Shown: positions 14,239 to 36,583 of the stretch, in pieces
How the letters are laid out: every line of letters starts with the position of its first letter
Position numbering within the stretch: the stretch's first letter is position 1
Origin: Manis javanica
Lineage: Eukaryota > Chordata > Mammalia > Pholidota > Manidae
Reading direction: 5' to 3'
Assembly (NCBI RefSeq): GCF_040802235.1
Contig: NC_133164.1
Location: forward strand, 90,450,302-90,514,301
DNA: 64,000 nt
Translations under genes and position numbers: made by a program
The notes under the pieces: generated by a model
Database searches by the model: none
Told to the model about the DNA's origin: nothing
What the model saw: the letters and a program-made list of their open reading frames with translations, nothing else

Positions 14239-15868
14239 GAGAGGGCATCTCTCATATTTATTGATCAAATGGTTGTTAACATCAATAAAATTCTGTATAG
14301 GGGACTCAATGCACAATGTACAATCATTAATCCACCCCAAGCCTAATTCTCATCAGTCTCCAATCTTCTGAAGCATAATGAACAAGTTCTTACATGGTGA
14401 ACAAATTCTTACATAGTGAATAAGTTCTTACATGGTGAACAGTACAAGGGCAGTCAAAACAGAAACTTTCAGTTTTGATCACATATTATGAACTGTAAAC
14501 AATCAGGTCAAATATGAATATTCATTTGATTTTTATACTTTATTTATATGTGAATCCCACATTTCTCCCTTATTATTATTTTTTTAAATAAAATGCTGAA
14601 GTGGTAGGTAATGCAAGATAAAGGTAGAAAACATAGTTTAGTGCTGTAAGAGAGCAAATTTAGATGAGCAGGTGTGTGCCTGTAGACTAAGTGTTAATCC
14701 AAGCTAGACAAGGGCAACAAAACATCCACAGATGCAGAAGATTTCTCAAAACAGGGGGGGGTGAGGTTCTAAACCTCACCTCTGTTGATCCCCAATTTCT
14801 CACCTGATGGCCCCCCTGTGACTGTGCCTGTCTTAGGTTGTTCCTCCCTTGAGGAATCTTACCTGTCTCTGGCTAACCAGTCATCTTCCGGGGCCATACA
14901 GGGAGATGTAAATTGATAAGTGAGAGAGAGGCAATATTGTTTGAAAAGGTTAGCTTTTTACTTCTTTGCAGATTTATGCCCTGTGGCTATTACGCCCAGT
15001 ATTTGTCTTGAGGTATCTTTACCACTTGGAAGAATTATGATACTTGGTAAATTTGATATGAGGCATGAATTCTATTTAAGGGTTGTAATTAGGAAGGAAG
15101 AAGAAAAGCTATAGCAGTAGCAGACGGAAGATAACATGGGAAGATTGATTACTTCTTTGACATATCTTCTTGTAGAGTAACTTAAGCACGTATAGGTTTT
15201 AAACTACTAATTAAATTGCATACACACATTAACATAATAGGAATACAGTTATATAACCAAAGCAGACCTATAATTACCAGCCATCTCCAGTGAAACCAAG
15301 AAAACCAGTTAGGCACCCTACGCATTTGTGAAAACTTATCTATGATATGGTGGATATTGTCCAACTGAACTTGAACAGTCTGAGAGAAATCAGACAAATT
15401 AAAACAACCCATTCCTGGGGACTGTTCACATTCCATATGTTCTTTTAACAGTAGATAGTCTGTAGTCATAAGATTTTGGAGCACTACAACTTGCACTTCT
15501 AATTCTTGGTTGAGTTCCAACAGTATAGATCCAGTCAAATTTGTTGTTTTACTGTATGCACAGGTCAGCTTAGATATCTCCTCCTTCATTCCAATGGCAA
15601 GTCCAGGAACTGGTGTGATGAATGCAGCTACAACTGCAGCATCGCCTGGATCTTTGTTGAGGTTTTTTGATGATCATCTTCTGGTATGACTCTTCCAGAG
15701 AGTGCTGATGTTGGAAGTTCTTCTTCATATCATATCTTAGTTCATTTTTTGGGTAGCCAAATTAGGCTTTGATCCTCTGTATAAACACAAACAGACCCTT
15801 TGCCCACACTTTGATATGCCCTTTATGCCATTGTGTAGAACTCATTGGAGGTCACCACACAGGAACTG
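14239..15868 (-). mobile_element. Env/LTR-derived L1 tail, copy 1
   Basis: A 1.6 kb module read on the minus strand and ending in poly(A) (T run at 14228-14238). It contains, in order, an Env TM-like reading frame (see 15182-15640), about 0.9 kb of non-coding sequence, a hairpin GTGAGGTTCTAAACCTCAC (14761-14779), three tandem copies of a repeat of about 21 bp around 14385-14445, and an AATAAA signal (complement of 14257-14262) about 20 nt before the poly(A). The order resembles the env-U3-R end of an endogenous retrovirus. It fuses directly to L1 at AACTG (15864-15868). A second copy lies at 29990-31628. Confidence 0.8.
15182..15640 (-). pseudogene. Retroviral Env transmembrane-subunit-like frame in the L1 tail (copy 1)
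   Basis: A 135-codon frame runs from the Met at 15589 to the stop at 15182. It is also open upstream to about 15640, where it reads a hydrophobic, fusion-peptide-like AVVAAFITPVPGLAIG. Next comes a heptad-rich segment (LLELNQELEVQVVVLQN), then a Cys loop CEQSPGMGCFNLSD. The spacing there is C-X7-C, where class I TM proteins usually have CX6CC, so the extra Cys is replaced by Gly. Then come a Trp-rich membrane-proximal part (WFSWFHW) and a membrane span (WLVIIGLLWLY). The surface subunit is absent, so it is a partial remnant. The homologous frame in copy 2 is broken by indels. The Cys-loop type suggests an alpha/beta-like or recombinant ERV Env, but the family was not settled. Confidence 0.7.
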
Positions 15869-17425
15869 TTAGTCCATTCTTGGGTTCTGTGATTCCACTG
15901 CTGTTTTGTTTCTTCAATTTTTCCTTTGTTCGTATACTCCACAGATGAGTGAAATCATTTGGTATTTCTCTTTCTCCACTTGGCTTATTTCACTGAGCAT
16001 AATACCCTCCAGCTCCATCCATGTTGCTGCAAATGGTAGGATTTGCCCTCTTCTTATGGCTGAGTAGTATTCCATTGTGTATATGTACCACATCTTCTTT
16101 ATCCATTCATCTACCGATGGACATTTAGGTTACTTCCAATTCTTGGCTATTGTAAATAGTGCTGCGATAAACATAGGGGTGCATCTGTCTTTCTCAAACT
16201 TGATTGCTGTGTTCTTAGGGTAAATTCCTAGGAGTGGAATTCCTGGGTCAAACGGTAAGTCTGTTTTGAGCATTTTGATGAACCTCCATACTGCTTCCAC
16301 AATGGTTGAACTAATTTACATTCCCACCAGCAGTGTAGGAGGGTTCCCCTTTCTCCACAGCCTTGCCAACATTTGTTGTTGTTTGTCTTTTGGATGGTGG
16401 CCATCCTTACTGGTGTGAGGTGATATCTCATTGTAGTTTTAATTTGAATTTCTCTGATGATTAGCGATGTGGAGCAGCTTTACATGTGCCTGTTGGCCAT
16501 CTGAATTTCTTCTTTGGAGAAGTGTCTGTTCAGTTCCTCTGCCCATTTTTTAATTGGATTATTTGCTTTTTGTTTGTTGAGGTGCATGAGCTCTTTATAT
16601 ATTTTGGATGTCAACACTGTATCGGATCTGTCATTTTCAAATATATTCTCCCATACTGTAGGGTGCCTTTTTGTTCTATTGATGGTGTCTTTTGCTGTAC
16701 AGAAGATTTTCTACTTAATATAGTCCCACTTGTTCATTTTTGCTGTTGTTTTCCTTGCCTGGGGAGATATGTTCAAGAAGAGGTCACTCATGTTTATGTC
16801 TAAAAGGTTTTTGCCTATGTTTTTTTCTAAGAGTTTTATGGTTTCATGACTTACATTCAGGTCTTTGATCCATTTTGAATTTACTTTTGTGTATGGGGCT
16901 AGACAATGGTCCAGTTTCATTCTACTACATGTAGCTGTCCAGTTTTGCCAGCACCATCTATTGAAGATACTGTCATTTCGCCACTGTATGTCCATGGCTC
17001 CTCTATCAAATATTAATTGACCACACATGTTTGGGTTAATGTCTGGAGTCTCTAGTCTGTTCCACTGGTCTGTGGCTCTGTTCTTGTGCCAGTACCAAAC
17101 TGTCTTGATTACTATGGCTTTGTAGTAGAGCTTGAAGTTGGGGGGTGAGATCGCCCCTACTTTATTCTTCTTTCTCAGGATTGCTTTGGCTATTCGGGGT
17201 CTTTGGTGTTTCCATATGAATTTTTGAATTATTTGTTCCAGTTCATTGAAGAATGTTGCTGGTAATTTGATAGTGATTGCATCAAATCTGTATATTGCTT
17301 TGGGCAGGATGGCCATTTTGACGATATTAATTCTTCCTAGCCATGAGCATGGGATGAGTTTCCATTTATTAGTGTCCCCTTTAATTTCTCTTAAGAGTGA
17401 CCTGTAGTTTTCAGAGTATAGGTCT
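15864..17425 (-). mobile_element. 5'-truncated L1 fused to the env tail (copy 1)
   Basis: L1 ORF2 C-terminal half, minus strand and sense to INO80C. It runs from about the reverse-transcriptase end (17425) to the end of ORF2. Instead of the usual L1 3' UTR it passes into the Env/LTR tail at AACTG. ORF2 pieces are readable at 16711-17316 and 16228-16431, with frame breaks. No convincing target-site duplication was found: the left flank is TCATTAATTTTTT and the right flank ACAATAATTGTTTTTT. Confidence 0.85.
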
Positions 17426-18693: not shown

Positions 18694-19052
18694 TCAATGG
18701 CTTTTCTTTACTTATTTATTTTATTTTGGTATCATTAATCTACAATTACAGAAAGAACATTATGTTTACTAGGTACCCCCCTTCACCAAGTCCCCCCACA
18801 TACCCCTTCACAGTCACTGTCCATCTGCATAGTAAGATGCTGTAAAATTGCTAGTCTTCTCTGTACTGTACAACCCTCCCTGTGCCTCCCACGTACTATA
18901 CATGCTAATCGTAATGCCCTCTTTCTTTTTCCCTGCCCTTATCCCTCCCTTCCCACCCATCGTCCCCAGTCCCTTTCCCTTTGGTAACTATTAGTCCATT
19001 CTTGGGTTCTGTGATTCTGCTGCTGTTTCATTCTTTCAGTTTTCCTTTGTTC

Positions 19053-28874: not shown

Positions 28875-29927
28875 GTGTGTAAATGAATATATCTTTCTAC
28901 CTCCGGATGGTATTAATGAAATTGATTTAAAGACAAGCGCTTGTGAAAATTGAGTGTTCTAAAACTTCCAGAAAACCTGATAAAAAAGTGTTAAGCATTA
29001 ATGCTAATTTGAGTTTGCCTGAGGCGGGCATGTCCTGGTAGTTGTCGGCTGCCTGAGTTTACCTAGAGTCATTTGAGTCATGTTATCTGCTAAATCTTTT
29101 AAGAATAGAATGCTTAGAAGCTTGGCTTTGTCTAGTGTTCAGTGGGGGTCTTGTGAGTAGGCTAGCATAGTTGTTGCAGGTAAGTGAACTGGATAAGTGT
29201 GGCAAGTGAACACCTTTTTAATTGTGTGTTGCAGTGTGTATGCCTACCTGCAGCCTGAGAATCTTTGTAGTAACTTAAAGCCTTAGAGTTTTGTTAAGTT
29301 GAGAAGATGTGCTCTGTGTTTGCTGGGAGATTGTGCTGTGAAGCTCATGGTTGCAGAAATTGTAGAATGTGTTCGTAAGTTTGTCAGTCTAGGAAATGTT
29401 GGTTTGATAGTTTGCAGTGTCCTGCTTCTCAGTGTTCACTGGAGCTTGAAGTTTCTAATAGTTTTGAGTTCTGGTTAGAACTGCTTAAAGTGATAGAGAG
29501 GGCATTTCTCTATGTTGAAAGATCACAGCAGTTTCTCATGCTTAAAGTCTCAGTGAGTTGCCATGAAATCGTAATGTTAAAGGGACTAAAAGCTAAAGTT
29601 TGTTAACAACTGTATAACCTTTATTTGCCTTTGAAATATTTTGTTATTAAAAATGATTGCATGGCCTGAAAAATTGAATTCCTAAGCAGAATAGTAACAA
29701 AGCTTTTTTCAGCTGATTAAATGCACTTAGTTAACAAACCAAAATTTATTAAACTGTAGAATCTGGACAAGATTATGTTTCTCCCAGAAAAACAGGTTTC
29801 ACTGTAAAGGTTTAGATAGACGAACGTGTGACCACTTTTGAGAAAAGTTGTAATAGATTTTTTGAGAACCACCAGGTCTTCTTGTTTAATTTATATGCTG
29901 TATGTTTTAAAAAAAAACATGGGGGAC
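28875..29927 (+). other. Proviral interior, left part, non-coding
   Basis: T/G-rich sequence with stops in every frame and no recognisable gag or pol. Belongs to the provirus by position. A weak frame at 29412-29606 is not like any retroviral protein I know. Confidence 0.55.
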
Positions 29928-29989
29928 TCTCCATATTTTTTTTTTTTTTTTTTTTGAAAGTTGTAATTTTTTTTTTTTTTTTTTTTTTT

Positions 29990-31628
29990 GAGAGGGCATC
30001 TCTCATATTTATTGATCAAATGGTTGTTAACAACAATAAAATTCAGTATAGGGGGGTCAATGCTCAATGTACAATCATTAATCCATCTCAAGCCTAATTC
30101 TCGTCAGTCTCCAATCTTCTGAAGCATAACGAACAAGTTCTTACATGGTGAACGAATTCTTACAGAGTGAATAAATTCTTACATGGTGAACAGTACAAGG
30201 GCATTCATCACAGAAACTTTCGGTTTTGATCATGCAATATGACCTATAAACCATCAGGTCAAATATGAATATTCATTTGATTTTTGTACTTGATTTATAT
30301 GTTGATCCCACATTTCTCCTATTATTATTATTATTTTTATTTTTAATAAAATGCTGAAGTGGTAGGTAGATGCAAGATAAAGGTAGAAAACATAGTTTAG
30401 TGCTGTAAGAAGGCAAATGTAGATGATCAGATGATCAGGTGTGTGCCTATGGACTAAGTATTAATCCAGGCTAGACAAGGGCAGCAAGACATCCACGGAT
30501 GCAGAAGATTTCTCTCAAAGCAGGGGGGGTGAGGTTCTGAGCCTCACCTCTGTTGATCCCCAAATTCTCACCTGATGGCCCCCCTGCGACTGTGCCTGTC
30601 TTAGGTTGTTCCTCCCTTGAGGAATCTTACCCGTCTCTGGCTAACCAGTCATCTTCCGGGGCCATACAGGGAAATGTAAAGTTGGTAAGTGAGAGAGAAG
30701 CCATATTGTTTGCAAAGGTTAGCTTTTTACTTCTTTGCAGATTTATGCCCTGTGGCTTCTATGCCCAGCACTTGTCTCGAGGTATCTTTACCACCTGGAG
30801 GAATTATGATACTCGGTAAATTCGATATGAGGCACGAATTCTATTTAAGGTTTGTAATTAGGAAGGAAGAAGAAAAGCTATAGATGTAGCATATGAAGGA
30901 AACTTGGGAGGATTGATTATTTCTTTGACATATCTTCTTGTATAGTACCTTAAGTATGTATAGGTTTTAAACTACTAACTAATTTGCACACACATTTTAA
31001 CATAATAGGAATACGGTGACATAAACAAAGCAAATCTATAATTACCAGCCATCTCCAGTGAAGCCAAGAAAACCATTTAGGCACCCTAGGCATTTGTGAA
31101 AATTTATCTATGATATGATGGATATTGTCCAACTGTACTTGAACCATCAGACAAATTAAAGCAGCCCATTTCTGGGATCTGTTCACATCCCATATGTTCT
31201 TTTAACCATAGATAGTCTATAGTCATGAGATTTTGGAGTGCTACAACTTGCACCCCTCCCAACTCCTGGTTGAGTTCCAACAGTACAGATCCGGTCAAAT
31301 TCGTTGTCTCACTGTATGCACATGCCAGCCTAGACATCTCCCTCCTCATTCCTATGGCAAGTCCAGGAGACGGTGGGCTGGATGCAGCCACAACCGCAGC
31401 ATCGTCCGGATCCCTGTGGAGGCTTTTTGATGATCATCCCCCGGCACGAGTCCTCCAGAGAGTGCTGATGCCGGAAGCTCCTCCTCATATCGTATCTTAG
31501 TTCATTTTCTGGGTATCCAAGCTAGGCCTTGATCTTCTGCGTAGAAACAAACAGACCCTTTGCCCACACTTTGACATGCCCTCTATACCACTGTGCAGAA
31601 CTCATTGGAGGTCAGCACACAGTAACTG
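29990..31628 (-). mobile_element. Env/LTR-derived L1 tail, copy 2
   Basis: Colinear with copy 1 (14239-15868) over its whole length, with the same landmarks. These are AATAAA (complement of 30008-30013), the repeat block of about 21 bp (about 30130-30195), the hairpin at 30529-30547, and the Env TM-like region at 30950-31391. Here the env frame is broken (pieces 31391-31104 and 31186-30950). Unlike copy 1 it joins an A tract, not L1 ORF2 sequence. Confidence 0.82.
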
Positions 31629-32165
31629 CTTTTTTTTTTTTTTTTTTTTTAATTAAGAGAAAGGAATATTATCAGAAAAGAGTACCTCCATAGCTGATCA
31701 TCTGACACCCTTTAAGTGATCAACATTAAGGATATTTAAAGCATGCGTTGATCTTTGATTTACCAATAGTTTTATCCTGTTAAGGAGTAATCCCCCTTTT
31801 CTTTCTTTCTTTCTTTTTTTTTTAAATTTTTAATCTACACTTACCTGAAGAATACTATGTTTACTATGCTCTCCCCTATATCAGGTCCCCCCTAACAACC
31901 ACATTACGGTTACTGTCCATCAGCTTAGCAAAATGTGGTAGAGTCACTACTTGTCCTCTCTGTGTTGTGCAGCCCACCCTCCCCTTTCTCCCTCCCCCCC
32001 ATGCATGCTAATCTTAATACCCTCCTTCTTCTTCCCCCCCCTTATCCCTCCCTGCCCACCCATCCTCCCCAGTTCCTTTCCCTTTGGTACCTGTTAGTCC
32101 ATTTTTGTGTTCTGTAATTCTGCTGCTGTTTTGTTCCTTCAGTTTTTCCTTTGTTCCTATACTCC

Positions 32166-33656
32166 TCAGATGAGTGAAATCATTTGGTATTTCTCTTTCT
32201 CCGCTTGGCTTATTTCACTGAGCATAATACTCTCCAGCTCCATCCATGTTGCTGCAAATGGTTGGATTTTTCCACTTCTTATGGCTGAGTAGTATTCCAT
32301 TGTGTATATGTACCACATCTTCTTTATCCATTCATCTACAGATGGACATTTAGGTTGCTTCCAATTCTTGGCTATTGTAAATAGTGCTGCGATAAACATA
32401 GGAGTGCATCTGTCTTTCTCAAACTTGATTGCTGCGTTCTTAGGGTAAATTCCTAGGAGTGGAATTCCTGGGTCAAATGGTAGGTCTGTTTTGAGCATTT
32501 TGATGCACCTCCATACTGCTTTCCACAATGGTTGAACTAATTTACATTCCCACCAGCAGTGTAGGAGGGTTCCCCTTTCTCCACAGCCTCGCCAACATTT
32601 GTTGTTGTTTGTCTTTTGGATGGCAGCTATCCTTACTGGTGTGAGGTGATACCTCATTGTAGTTTTAATTTGCATTTCTCTGATAATTAGCGATGTGGAG
32701 CATCTTTTCATGTGTCTCTTGGCCATCTGTATTTCTTTTTTGGAGAACTGTCTGTTCAGTTCCTCTGCCCATTTTTTAATTGGGTTATTTGTTTTTTGTT
32801 TGTTGAGGCGTGTGAGCTCTTTATATATTCTGGACGTCAAGCCTTTATCAGATCTGTCATTTTCAAATATATTCTCCCATACTGTAGGGTTCCTTTTTGT
32901 TCTATTGATGGTGTCTTTCGCTGTACAGAAGCTTTTCAGCTTAATGTAGTCCCACTTGCTCATTTTTGCTGTTGTTTTCCTTGCCCGGGGAGATATGTTC
33001 AAGAAGAGATCACTCATGTTTATATCTAAGAGGTTTTTGCCTATGTTTTTTTCCAAGAGTTTAATGGTTTCGTGACTTACATTCAGGTCTTTGATCCATT
33101 TTGAGTTTACCTTTGTATATGGGGTTAGACAATGGTCCAGTTTCATTCTCCTACATGTAGCTGTCCAGTTTTGCCAGCACCATCTGTTGAAGAGACTGTC
33201 ATTTTGCCATTGTATGTCCATGGCTCCTTTATCAAATATTAATTGACCATATATGTTTGGGTTAATTTCTGGGGTCTCTAATCTGTTCCACTGGTCTGTG
33301 GCTCTGTTCTTGTGCCAGTACCAAATTGTCTTGATTACTATGGCTTTGTAGTAGAGCTTGAAGTTGGGGAGTGAGATCCCCCCTACTTTATTCTTCTTTT
33401 TCAGGATTGCTTTGGCTATTCGGGGTCTTTGGTGTTTCCATATGAATTTTTGAATTATTTGTTCCAATTCATTGAAGAATGTTGCTGGTAATTTGAGAGG
33501 GATTGCATCAAATTTGTATATTGCTTTTGGCAGGATGGCCATTTTGACGATATTAATTCTTCCTAGCCATGAGCATGGGATGAGTTTCCATTTATTAGTG
33601 TCCCCTTTAATTTCTCTTAAGAGTGACTTGTAGTTTTCAGAGTATAAGTCTTTCAC
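32166..33656 (-). CDS. L1 ORF2 C-terminal half, open but 5'-truncated
   Basis: A 496-codon uninterrupted stretch of L1 ORF2 from downstream of the RT core (starts [18 protein letters not shown]) to near the natural C terminus (...[12 protein letters not shown]). It contains the [19 protein letters not shown] region and the Cys-rich zone [15 protein letters not shown]. The endonuclease and RT catalytic motifs are missing because of 5' truncation, so it is not a functional enzyme. The clean frame shows that the insertion is recent. There is no promoter of its own. Confidence 0.85.
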
Positions 33657-33724
33657 TTCCTTGGTTAGGTTTATTCCTAGGTATTTTATTCTTTTTGATG
33701 CAATGGTGAATCTCCATATTTTTT

Positions 33725-35686: not shown

Positions 35687-36583
35687 CTGCACCCTTTCTC
35701 AGCACGAAGCAGCCAGAGCGGTCATCGCCCCTTTTCCCTAGCAGCAGCTAGAGTCTTTATCTGTAGAAGAAAGAATGAGACCATACCCATAGCCTTCCCT
35801 GGTAAAAACAGGTATTTAATCCCTCCTCCCAATAGATGGTGGGCTTGTAACACTGGAGTGACCCCATGTGTCTCTACTTCTGCCTTCAACTCCTCCCGTG
35901 ATTTCTGTATCATGGTCCAGTTAGTACCCAGACTAATGTATCATGATGACTTATCATTCGTGGCAGAATTAGAACCTAAACTAAGGTATAAAAGAGAGCC
36001 AGTCTCACTCACTCTAGCTGTATTACTAAGAGTAGGAGTCGCAGCCGGAGTAGGACCAGGGGCAGCTGCAATTATACAAGGAAACCAACATTACGAAGGA
36101 CTAAGAATAGCTATCGATGAAGATTTGAGAACTATAGAACAGTCTATTTCTAAACTTGAAAAGTCCCTAACCTCTCTCTCTGAAGTAGTGCTGCAAAATA
36201 GACGAGGGTTAGATTTACTATTTCTAAAAGAAAGTGGATTGTGTGCAGCTCTAAAGGAAGAGTGCTGCTTCTATGCAGACCATACTGGAGTAGTAAGAGA
36301 CTCAATGTCTAAATTAAGAGAAAGATTAGATCAGCGAAAGCGAGAACGAGAAGCTAACCAGAGCCTGTTTGAATCCTGGTTTTCTAGATCCCCATGGCTT
36401 ACAACTCTAATATCCACTTTGGCAGGACCCCTGCTTATTTCAATATTGCTCCTCACCTTAGGTCCCTGCATTTTAAATCGAGTAATAACCTTTATTAGAG
36501 AAAGAGTAAGTGCTGTGCAGGTGCTAATGCTGAGACAACAGTATCATACCCTCACACAACAAGAAGAAACCAACATTCCATGA
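35687..36583 (+). CDS. env: Partial retroviral env: end of surface subunit plus complete transmembrane subunit
   Basis: Open from 35687 to the TGA at 36581-36583. The first part is the conserved C-terminal end of a gammaretroviral surface subunit ([15 protein letters not shown] near 35839-35880). A furin-type RYKR site follows at 35984-35995, then a Leu/Ala/Gly-rich fusion-peptide region. Next are a coiled coil, the immunosuppressive-type segment ([14 protein letters not shown], from 36191) and the Cys motif CX6CC (36242-36268). A membrane-proximal WFSRSPW, a membrane span and a cytoplasmic tail with YHTL complete it. TM looks intact, while the receptor-binding part of the surface subunit is missing. 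No ATG lies at a plausible start. Expression would need splicing from the leader donor or a joined upstream exon. Fusogenic function is not expected without the surface subunit. Confidence 0.88.

Follow-up and report, generated by a model that had tools for sequence, protein, structure and literature searches.

Young L1 elements in a sample of the Manis javanica genome carry a 3' end derived from an endogenous retrovirus

Transductions by L1 retrotransposons are usually private or small-family events. In the L1 3' transduction families described in the parts of PMC6425141 used here, a downstream segment is inherited at the L1 3' end, with poly(A) at the new end and target-site duplications (TSDs), and the human RC-L1 family, which has 14 members, was called the largest found to date in 2019 (PMC6425141). 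Endogenous retrovirus (ERV) sequence also forms the 3' part of the SINE-R-VNTR-Alu (SVA; VNTR, variable number of tandem repeats) elements of hominoids, which are non-autonomous and derive this part from HERV-K (PMC4432496). ARTenvV arose when LINE-1 retrocopied the env mRNA of an ERV, and it shows 14-bp duplications (PMC9604959), and chimeric L1 has been reported in mouse (PMC6500023). Among pangolin ERVs, ERV-Alpha-Mpen has been placed between the alpha- and betaretroviruses, and an L1 was inserted in one gamma ERV; the portions of that survey used here describe no L1 lineage with an ERV tail (PMC12584738), and the titles and abstract openings of the open-licence literature searched yielded no description of one either. 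Here we report that a window of 64,000 nucleotides from the pangolin Manis javanica (contig NC_133164.1, positions 90,450,302 to 90,514,301) holds two copies of a composite element in which an L1 continues into an ERV-derived tail, and that the youngest L1s in a 364-kb sample of this genome carry the retroviral 3' end as a fixed part.

The sample covered three contigs of the same genome and consisted of the window, which is the whole stretch named above, and 300 kb read in addition: the 200 kb after the window (L001-L020) and 50 kb each of contigs C2 (L021-L025) and C5 (L026-L030). Eight tail copies were found; the 5' side could be read in seven of them, and the eighth is cut off at the border of L026. 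The two in the window, copy 1 (c1, 29928-33724) and copy 2 (c2, 14239-17425), lie on the minus strand, and the features of the seven readable copies are listed in Table 1. We conclude, with a probability of about 0.9, that c1 belongs to a young L1 lineage of high copy number, lacks its 5' part and bears the permanent 3' extension of that lineage, which consists of a linker of ~145 bp and an ERV-derived tail of 1.64 kb. Extrapolation from eight tails per 364 kb to the 2.56 Gb assembly gives ~56,000 copies (Poisson 95% roughly 24,000-111,000, by hand), and six tails per 300 kb, without the window that was chosen for the feature, give ~51,000 copies; both figures indicate an order of magnitude, because the sample is small and comes mostly from one region.

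The composite is of a known kind, the L1 3' transduction, with linker and tail common to six of seven copies and inserted as a unit, and what is new here is an L1 with a captured and stably inherited retroviral 3' end. Unlike the RC-L1 family with its 14 members, it extrapolates to tens of thousands of copies (8 in 364 kb), and its segment is ERV-derived, has its own poly(A) site and is present on every clade member in the sample. The HERV-K part of SVA comprises env and long terminal repeat (LTR) sequence. The pangolin composite shares with SVA an ERV-derived 3' domain that ends at the LTR poly(A) site of an L1-mobilised element. However, SVA as described in the cited sections is non-autonomous and contains VNTR and Alu-like parts, whereas the composite is a whole L1 with open reading frame 2 (ORF2), and the ERV of its tail looks to be of another kind, with a transmembrane (TM) subunit like that of avian sarcoma/leukosis virus (ASLV). 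The composite works partly like an SVA but is not an SVA. It may already be annotated in Dfam or Repbase under L1 or ERV names.

A sequence-only reading of the window had proposed that the tail of an L1 lineage was taken over from the 3' end of an ERV, a proposal that the sample supports. All seven readable tails are joined on their 5' side to an L1 of the same strand, which is not expected by chance, since an identical query detects L1 on only 7.5% of the plus strand and 12.6% of the minus strand in the sample. Six of the seven share one order, consisting of the L1 3' untranslated region (UTR), a (GAAA)n stretch, a linker 141-145 bp long, a run of 10-21 A and a tail beginning with GCAGTT. The L1 part resembles other L1s in the window by sequence similarity, and three of the seven copies (t228k, t118k and A) are full length, with a 5' end, GGGTGGAGCCAAGATGGCGG, that we take to be that of an L1. 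No tail stood alone in the 364 kb, apart from one LTR fragment (L016:3977-4256). We also considered whether c1 arose by nested insertion, in which a separately retrocopied tail would have inserted into the A-tail of a normal L1, its duplication masked by the A's. The A-tract lies exactly at the c1 join, and A-tails are favoured targets of L1, as this explanation would have it. However, the A-tract recurs in all six unspliced copies, so that it is not the trace of a nested insertion peculiar to c1, and the common order in six of seven copies on two contigs, the single clade formed by their L1s and a linker found nowhere else in the sample leave nested insertion with next to no chance.

We also asked whether L1 and tail moved together. 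The element order claimed for c1 (truncated L1, (GAAA)n, linker, A-tract, tail and poly(A), all on the minus strand) was confirmed, as was the exact 14-bp TSD AAAAAATATGGAGA that encloses it. The leading AAAAAA of this duplication merges with the poly(A), so that its informative part is the eight letters TATGGAGA. Exact TSDs surround the whole unit in four of seven copies, measuring 14 nt in c1, 15 in A, 16 in B and 12 in t118k, where up to 3 of the 12 nt could be part of the L1 5' end. When 42 mismatched pairs of flanks were compared by the identical procedure, the longest match was 6, as against 14 for the flanks of c1. Copy A split an older L1 on insertion. When its flanks are joined across one TSD, they match three paralogous L1s without a gap (181/198, 177/191 and 178/195 positions), which shows the empty site into which a unit of L1, linker and tail 8.5 kb long had inserted. 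These duplications and the verified empty site bear out the claim that L1 and tail moved as one unit, and the copies show the features of target-primed insertion, namely poly(A), an A-rich target site and TSDs of 12-16 nt in four of seven. A short insert splits the poly(A) of two young composites, as A23-TTACAACTTTC-A20 in c1 and as A24-GTGGG-A24 at L023:918-970. The sequence TTACAACTTT recurs ~100 bp away in the c1 flank (29844-29855), which may reflect local re-priming during insertion.

The relationship of the tail-bearing L1s was assessed from a tree of 25 L1 segments, each of at least 700 bp; t183k was left out for containing too little L1. The six tail-bearing L1s form one clade (support 1.000, stem 0.055) nested among tail-less L1s. 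The other 19 segments are all tail-less, with 14 that reach the L1 3' end and 5 that stop before it. Matches to the full-length composite of at least 92% and at least 150 bp occur only on the six tail-bearing elements, and no tail-less member of the clade was seen in the 364-kb sample. Copies c1 and B differ at 5/1070 L1 bases and 13/1637 tail bases, which indicates recent activity. At a neutral rate of 2.2e-9 per year, these differences correspond to about 1-2 million years, and the tail divergence of ~11% from the group of c2 and t183k would place the capture some 25 million years or more ago. An older tail-less L1, nearly full length and with its ORF1 and ORF2 frames in pieces, lies at 18701 to ~24500 (minus strand); at 87% to the composite L1 it makes a useful outgroup.

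In four of ten young pairs, all of them with t118k, L1 and tail distances agree within ~15% (for example 3.28/2.83% for c1-t118k and 3.65/4.09% for t228k-t118k). The two copies in the window differ by 10.3% in the tail and 5.6% in L1. Third codon positions of ORF2 diverge by 6.9-10.3% and first and second positions by 3.9-5.5%, so that constraint on ORF2 in the propagating lineage can account for part, though not all, of the slower L1 divergence. Several observations weigh against a single lineage with a permanently extended 3' end. The tail is 1.4-2.9 times as diverged as L1 in six of ten young pairs (0.75/2.20% for A-B), the young copies differ from c2 about twofold more in the tail (10.6-11.8%) than in L1 (5.6-7.1%), and even ORF2 third positions diverge less than the tail. 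A search with c1 also brings up, at 92.8%, a 180-bp piece of the tail-less, older L1 into which copy A inserted. Three of seven copies have no exact TSD: that of c2 is degenerate and was seen by eye, that of t183k is A-rich and of low information, and t228k has none. The founder locus, in which L1, linker and tail would be genomic neighbours, was not found in the 364 kb, no genome-wide search for it having been made, and the sample is non-random, with 264 of 364 kb comprising the window and the adjoining stretch. The unequal distances of c2 and of six of ten young pairs would also suit repeated template switching, in which the L1 reverse transcriptase jumps from tail RNA to L1 RNA and produces independent chimeras, as would the join of L1 and tail in c2 at a shared CAG and the CAGTTAC, like the tail start, of three of seven older tail-less L1s. 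Yet a single clade and one fixed linker in six of seven copies make repeated switching highly improbable. Nesting and independent template switching were plausible from c1 and c2 alone and were overturned by the 200 kb next to the window.

The tail begins with what is probably the end of pol. A 26-residue piece of c2 matches IN_DBD_C (E 0.0058, below the family cut-off; the c1 counterpart gave no match), and a PDB search with it returned weak matches, two of which are named Integrase (E 0.57) and Pr160 (E 0.75), which suggests a probable integrase C-terminal remnant. The Env TM-like frame was confirmed and is cleaner in c2, in which 163 residues (15182-15673) remain open and match the ASLV TM subunit in a PDB search (E 2.1e-7); Pfam matched no TM family to the tail TM frames. 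ERV-Alpha-Mpen, likened here by its description only, would fit an ASLV-like TM and a probable class II integrase end (PMC12584738). TM relatives made up 27 of 57 candidates in one protein search and 39 of 40 in a second, overlapping search, and nearly all come from short contigs of the European Nucleotide Archive (ENA). Among the 45 of 48 TM-relative sequences examined, seven (P0020 and P0024-P0029) start at the env leader, and in all seven the leader runs directly into TM with no surface subunit (SU). Another relative, P0031, has upstream residues unlike the leader of the seven others that reach that far, and this part may be where SU ends in a more complete Env. No relatives of the tail were found in viral contigs (DNA and protein) or genome contigs (protein). 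A genome-wide query with 601 tail bases gave 0 matches in a search that skips words very common in that genome, and a frame spanning the junction had no candidates in a protein collection, which is a weak test given that such frames are rarely called.

The presence of a retroviral polyadenylation region was likewise confirmed, with AATAAA followed by the cleavage site. The LTR fragment at L016:3977-4256 (minus strand), which is 73-78% identical to the tail depending on the query and has no clear target duplication, passes through the AATAAATATGAGAG...CCCTCTC that it shares with the tails and continues into a U5-like end. It is a U3-R-U5 fragment that represents the ERV family apart from the L1 lineage. 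Seven of eight tails terminate at the ERV R poly(A) site, whereas that of t183k stops ~150 bp before it, in an A-rich stretch (L012:7681), possibly from internal priming or later loss. The position of these ends is consistent with the earlier proposal that the lineage uses the ERV signal for 3' end formation. The composites lack the make-up of a provirus, in which two LTRs flank gag-pol-env between duplications of 4-6 bp; they retain only the probable integrase remnant, env leader and TM, U3 and R, and their duplications are of the L1 type.

Based on these findings, we propose how the lineage may have arisen. The L1 machinery would have inserted a retrocopy of an ERV mRNA with an SU-less env at an A-rich site that lay ~145 bp 3' of an active L1. 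Transcripts of this L1 that passed its own poly(A) site and ended at the retroviral R poly(A) site would have transduced linker and tail with the L1, and the descendants would have amplified as one unit, ~8.2-9.3 kb when full length and autonomous in architecture. The (GAAA)n stretch would represent the original poly(A) of the founding L1. In four of six linker copies AATAAA or ATTAAA occurs near the A-tract only by overlap with it, and t118k and t183k have none, which makes it unlikely that the A-tract arose as a poly(A) tail at the end of the linker. ARTenvV, as described in the cited sections, shows the step proposed for the founder, but it is a single retrocopy and not part of an L1 (PMC9604959). 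We infer that the lineage originated by read-through, that the ERV signal is used in vivo and that part of the RNA is spliced, as represented by c2.

Whether the tail contributes to mobility was also considered. The tail could be a neutral hitch-hiker on a successful L1, as many 3' transductions are passengers. An 11-bp deletion shifts the TM frame in four of seven copies (c1, t228k, A and B), the youngest included, so that the TM frame is not required for spread. TM may have been under coding constraint in the past, as third positions differ by 17.4-19.7% and first and second positions by 8.9-14.4% between young copies and c2, with no such excess between t183k and c2. All descendants seen, except t183k, keep the ERV end, and the tail was retained across ~11% tail divergence with no tail-less member in the sample; this suggests that the ERV poly(A) site had come to serve as the functional 3' end. 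A neutral tail nevertheless has a substantial chance, slightly short of even. A further proposal is that the lineage depends on the captured U3-R poly(A) module, and perhaps on other RNA signals of the ERV 3' UTR, and displaced the other L1 lineages of the species through the resulting advantage, with spliced forms as by-products. We regard this proposal as tentative and rather doubtful; if true, the composite would be an autonomous hybrid of LINE and retrovirus that was active over tens of millions of years. In this case a transduction has turned into a lasting component that defines the lineage of the youngest L1s sampled, and what it captured is the 3' end of a retrovirus. Two questions thereby become open to test: which functions (a poly(A) signal, RNA signals) the 3' end of an L1 has to supply, and whether the success of one L1 lineage over others is determined by the gain of a strong poly(A) site. 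For annotation, apparent ERV env or LTR fragments, possibly tens of thousands of them, may be L1 tails rather than proviral remains.

The second copy departs from the common order. The sequence-only reading had also named the tail at 14239-15868; this copy, c2, lacks linker and A-tract, and its L1 is joined straight to the tail at CTAACAG/TT. Alignment with c1 shows that exactly 465 bases are gone, from CAG/GT to AG/TT. The donor CAG/GTACC is present in all five composites that hold the site (c1, t118k, t228k, A and B), whereas t183k starts downstream of it. In all seven older tail-less L1s TT stands in place of the donor, and three of them read CAGTTAC as at the tail start. This identity was considered as the scar of a template switch and rejected, as all five composites that hold the site read CAGGTACC, which suggests that splicing now fits better, although not decisively. 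With exact GT...AG ends and a donor in 5/5 composites where 7/7 older L1s have T, the sequences make splicing the somewhat favoured explanation of the missing stretch. Alternatively, the 465 bp could have been lost from c2 by deletion at the DNA level, or the reverse transcriptase could have skipped them at the repeated CAG. CAG stands at both ends of the missing stretch, positions +4 to +6 of the donor are unlike the consensus, and in young copies an A-tract rather than a pyrimidine run precedes the acceptor, making it a weak one; we give such a loss rather less than an even chance. In t183k, which belongs to the tail group of c2, the A-tract has only 10 A's. In t118k the (GAAA)n stretch is expanded (L006:3594-3974), and its donor-acceptor span is ~360 bp longer than in c1.

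Table 1. Features of the composite elements. Positions without a prefix are those of the window; L numbers refer to the additional 300 kb.
Feature	Location	Strand	Remarks
c1, TSD copy at L1 (5') end	33711..33724	-	AAAAAATATGGAGA in sense
c1, TSD copy at poly(A) (3') end	29928..29941	-	
c1, 5'-truncated L1	31839..33710	-	3' part of ORF2 and 3' UTR
c1, open ORF2 frame	32166-33722	-	518 aa, some flank included
c1, A-rich (GAAA)n stretch	31797..31838	-	
c1, linker	31653..31796	-	present in all 6 unspliced composites, nowhere else in sample
c1, A-tract between linker and tail	~31630..31652	-	10-21 A across 6 unspliced copies
c1, ERV-derived tail	29990..31629	-	probable integrase C-terminal remnant, env leader, TM without SU, 3' UTR, U3, R
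c1, first piece of TM frame	31104..31433	-	109 aa; frame shifts afterwards at 11-bp deletion
c1, U3-R part of LTR	29990..30312	-	starts TGTGGGAT after purine-rich tract; boundary by comparison with L016:3977-4256
c1, AATAAA	30008..30013	-	cleavage site 18 nt further, at CCCTCTC
c1, terminal poly(A)	29936..29989	-	A23-TTACAACTTTC-A20
c1, putative 465-nt intron	31626..32090	-	CAG/GTACC ... AAGCAG/TT; absent from c2
c2, L1 part	15866..17425	-	ends ...GGACTAACAG
c2, tail	14239..15868	-	joined directly to L1; ends at common poly(A) site
c2, probable integrase C-terminal (IN_DBD_C) remnant	15742..15822	-	
c2, open Env TM frame	15182..15673	-	163 aa
t118k, tail	L006:4129-5776	+	
t118k, full length	L005:6434-L006:5776		ORF2 broken
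t183k, tail	L012:7681-9201	-	
t228k, tail	L017:3120-4748	-	
t228k, full length	L017:3120-L018:1353		8,234 bp; open ORF2 of 1288 aa at L017:5277-9143
Copy A	in L021		
Copy A, full length	L021:1390-9900		8.5 kb
Copy B	L022/L023		

Further scans were made of the window and its frames. Pfam named no L1 domain on the 518-residue ORF2 piece of c1, and tRNA and Rfam scans of the window found nothing. At 35687-36583 on the plus strand, an open frame of 298 residues was recognised by eye as a gammaretrovirus-type Env TM (CX6CC); it differs from the TM of the tail and is a separate ERV remnant.

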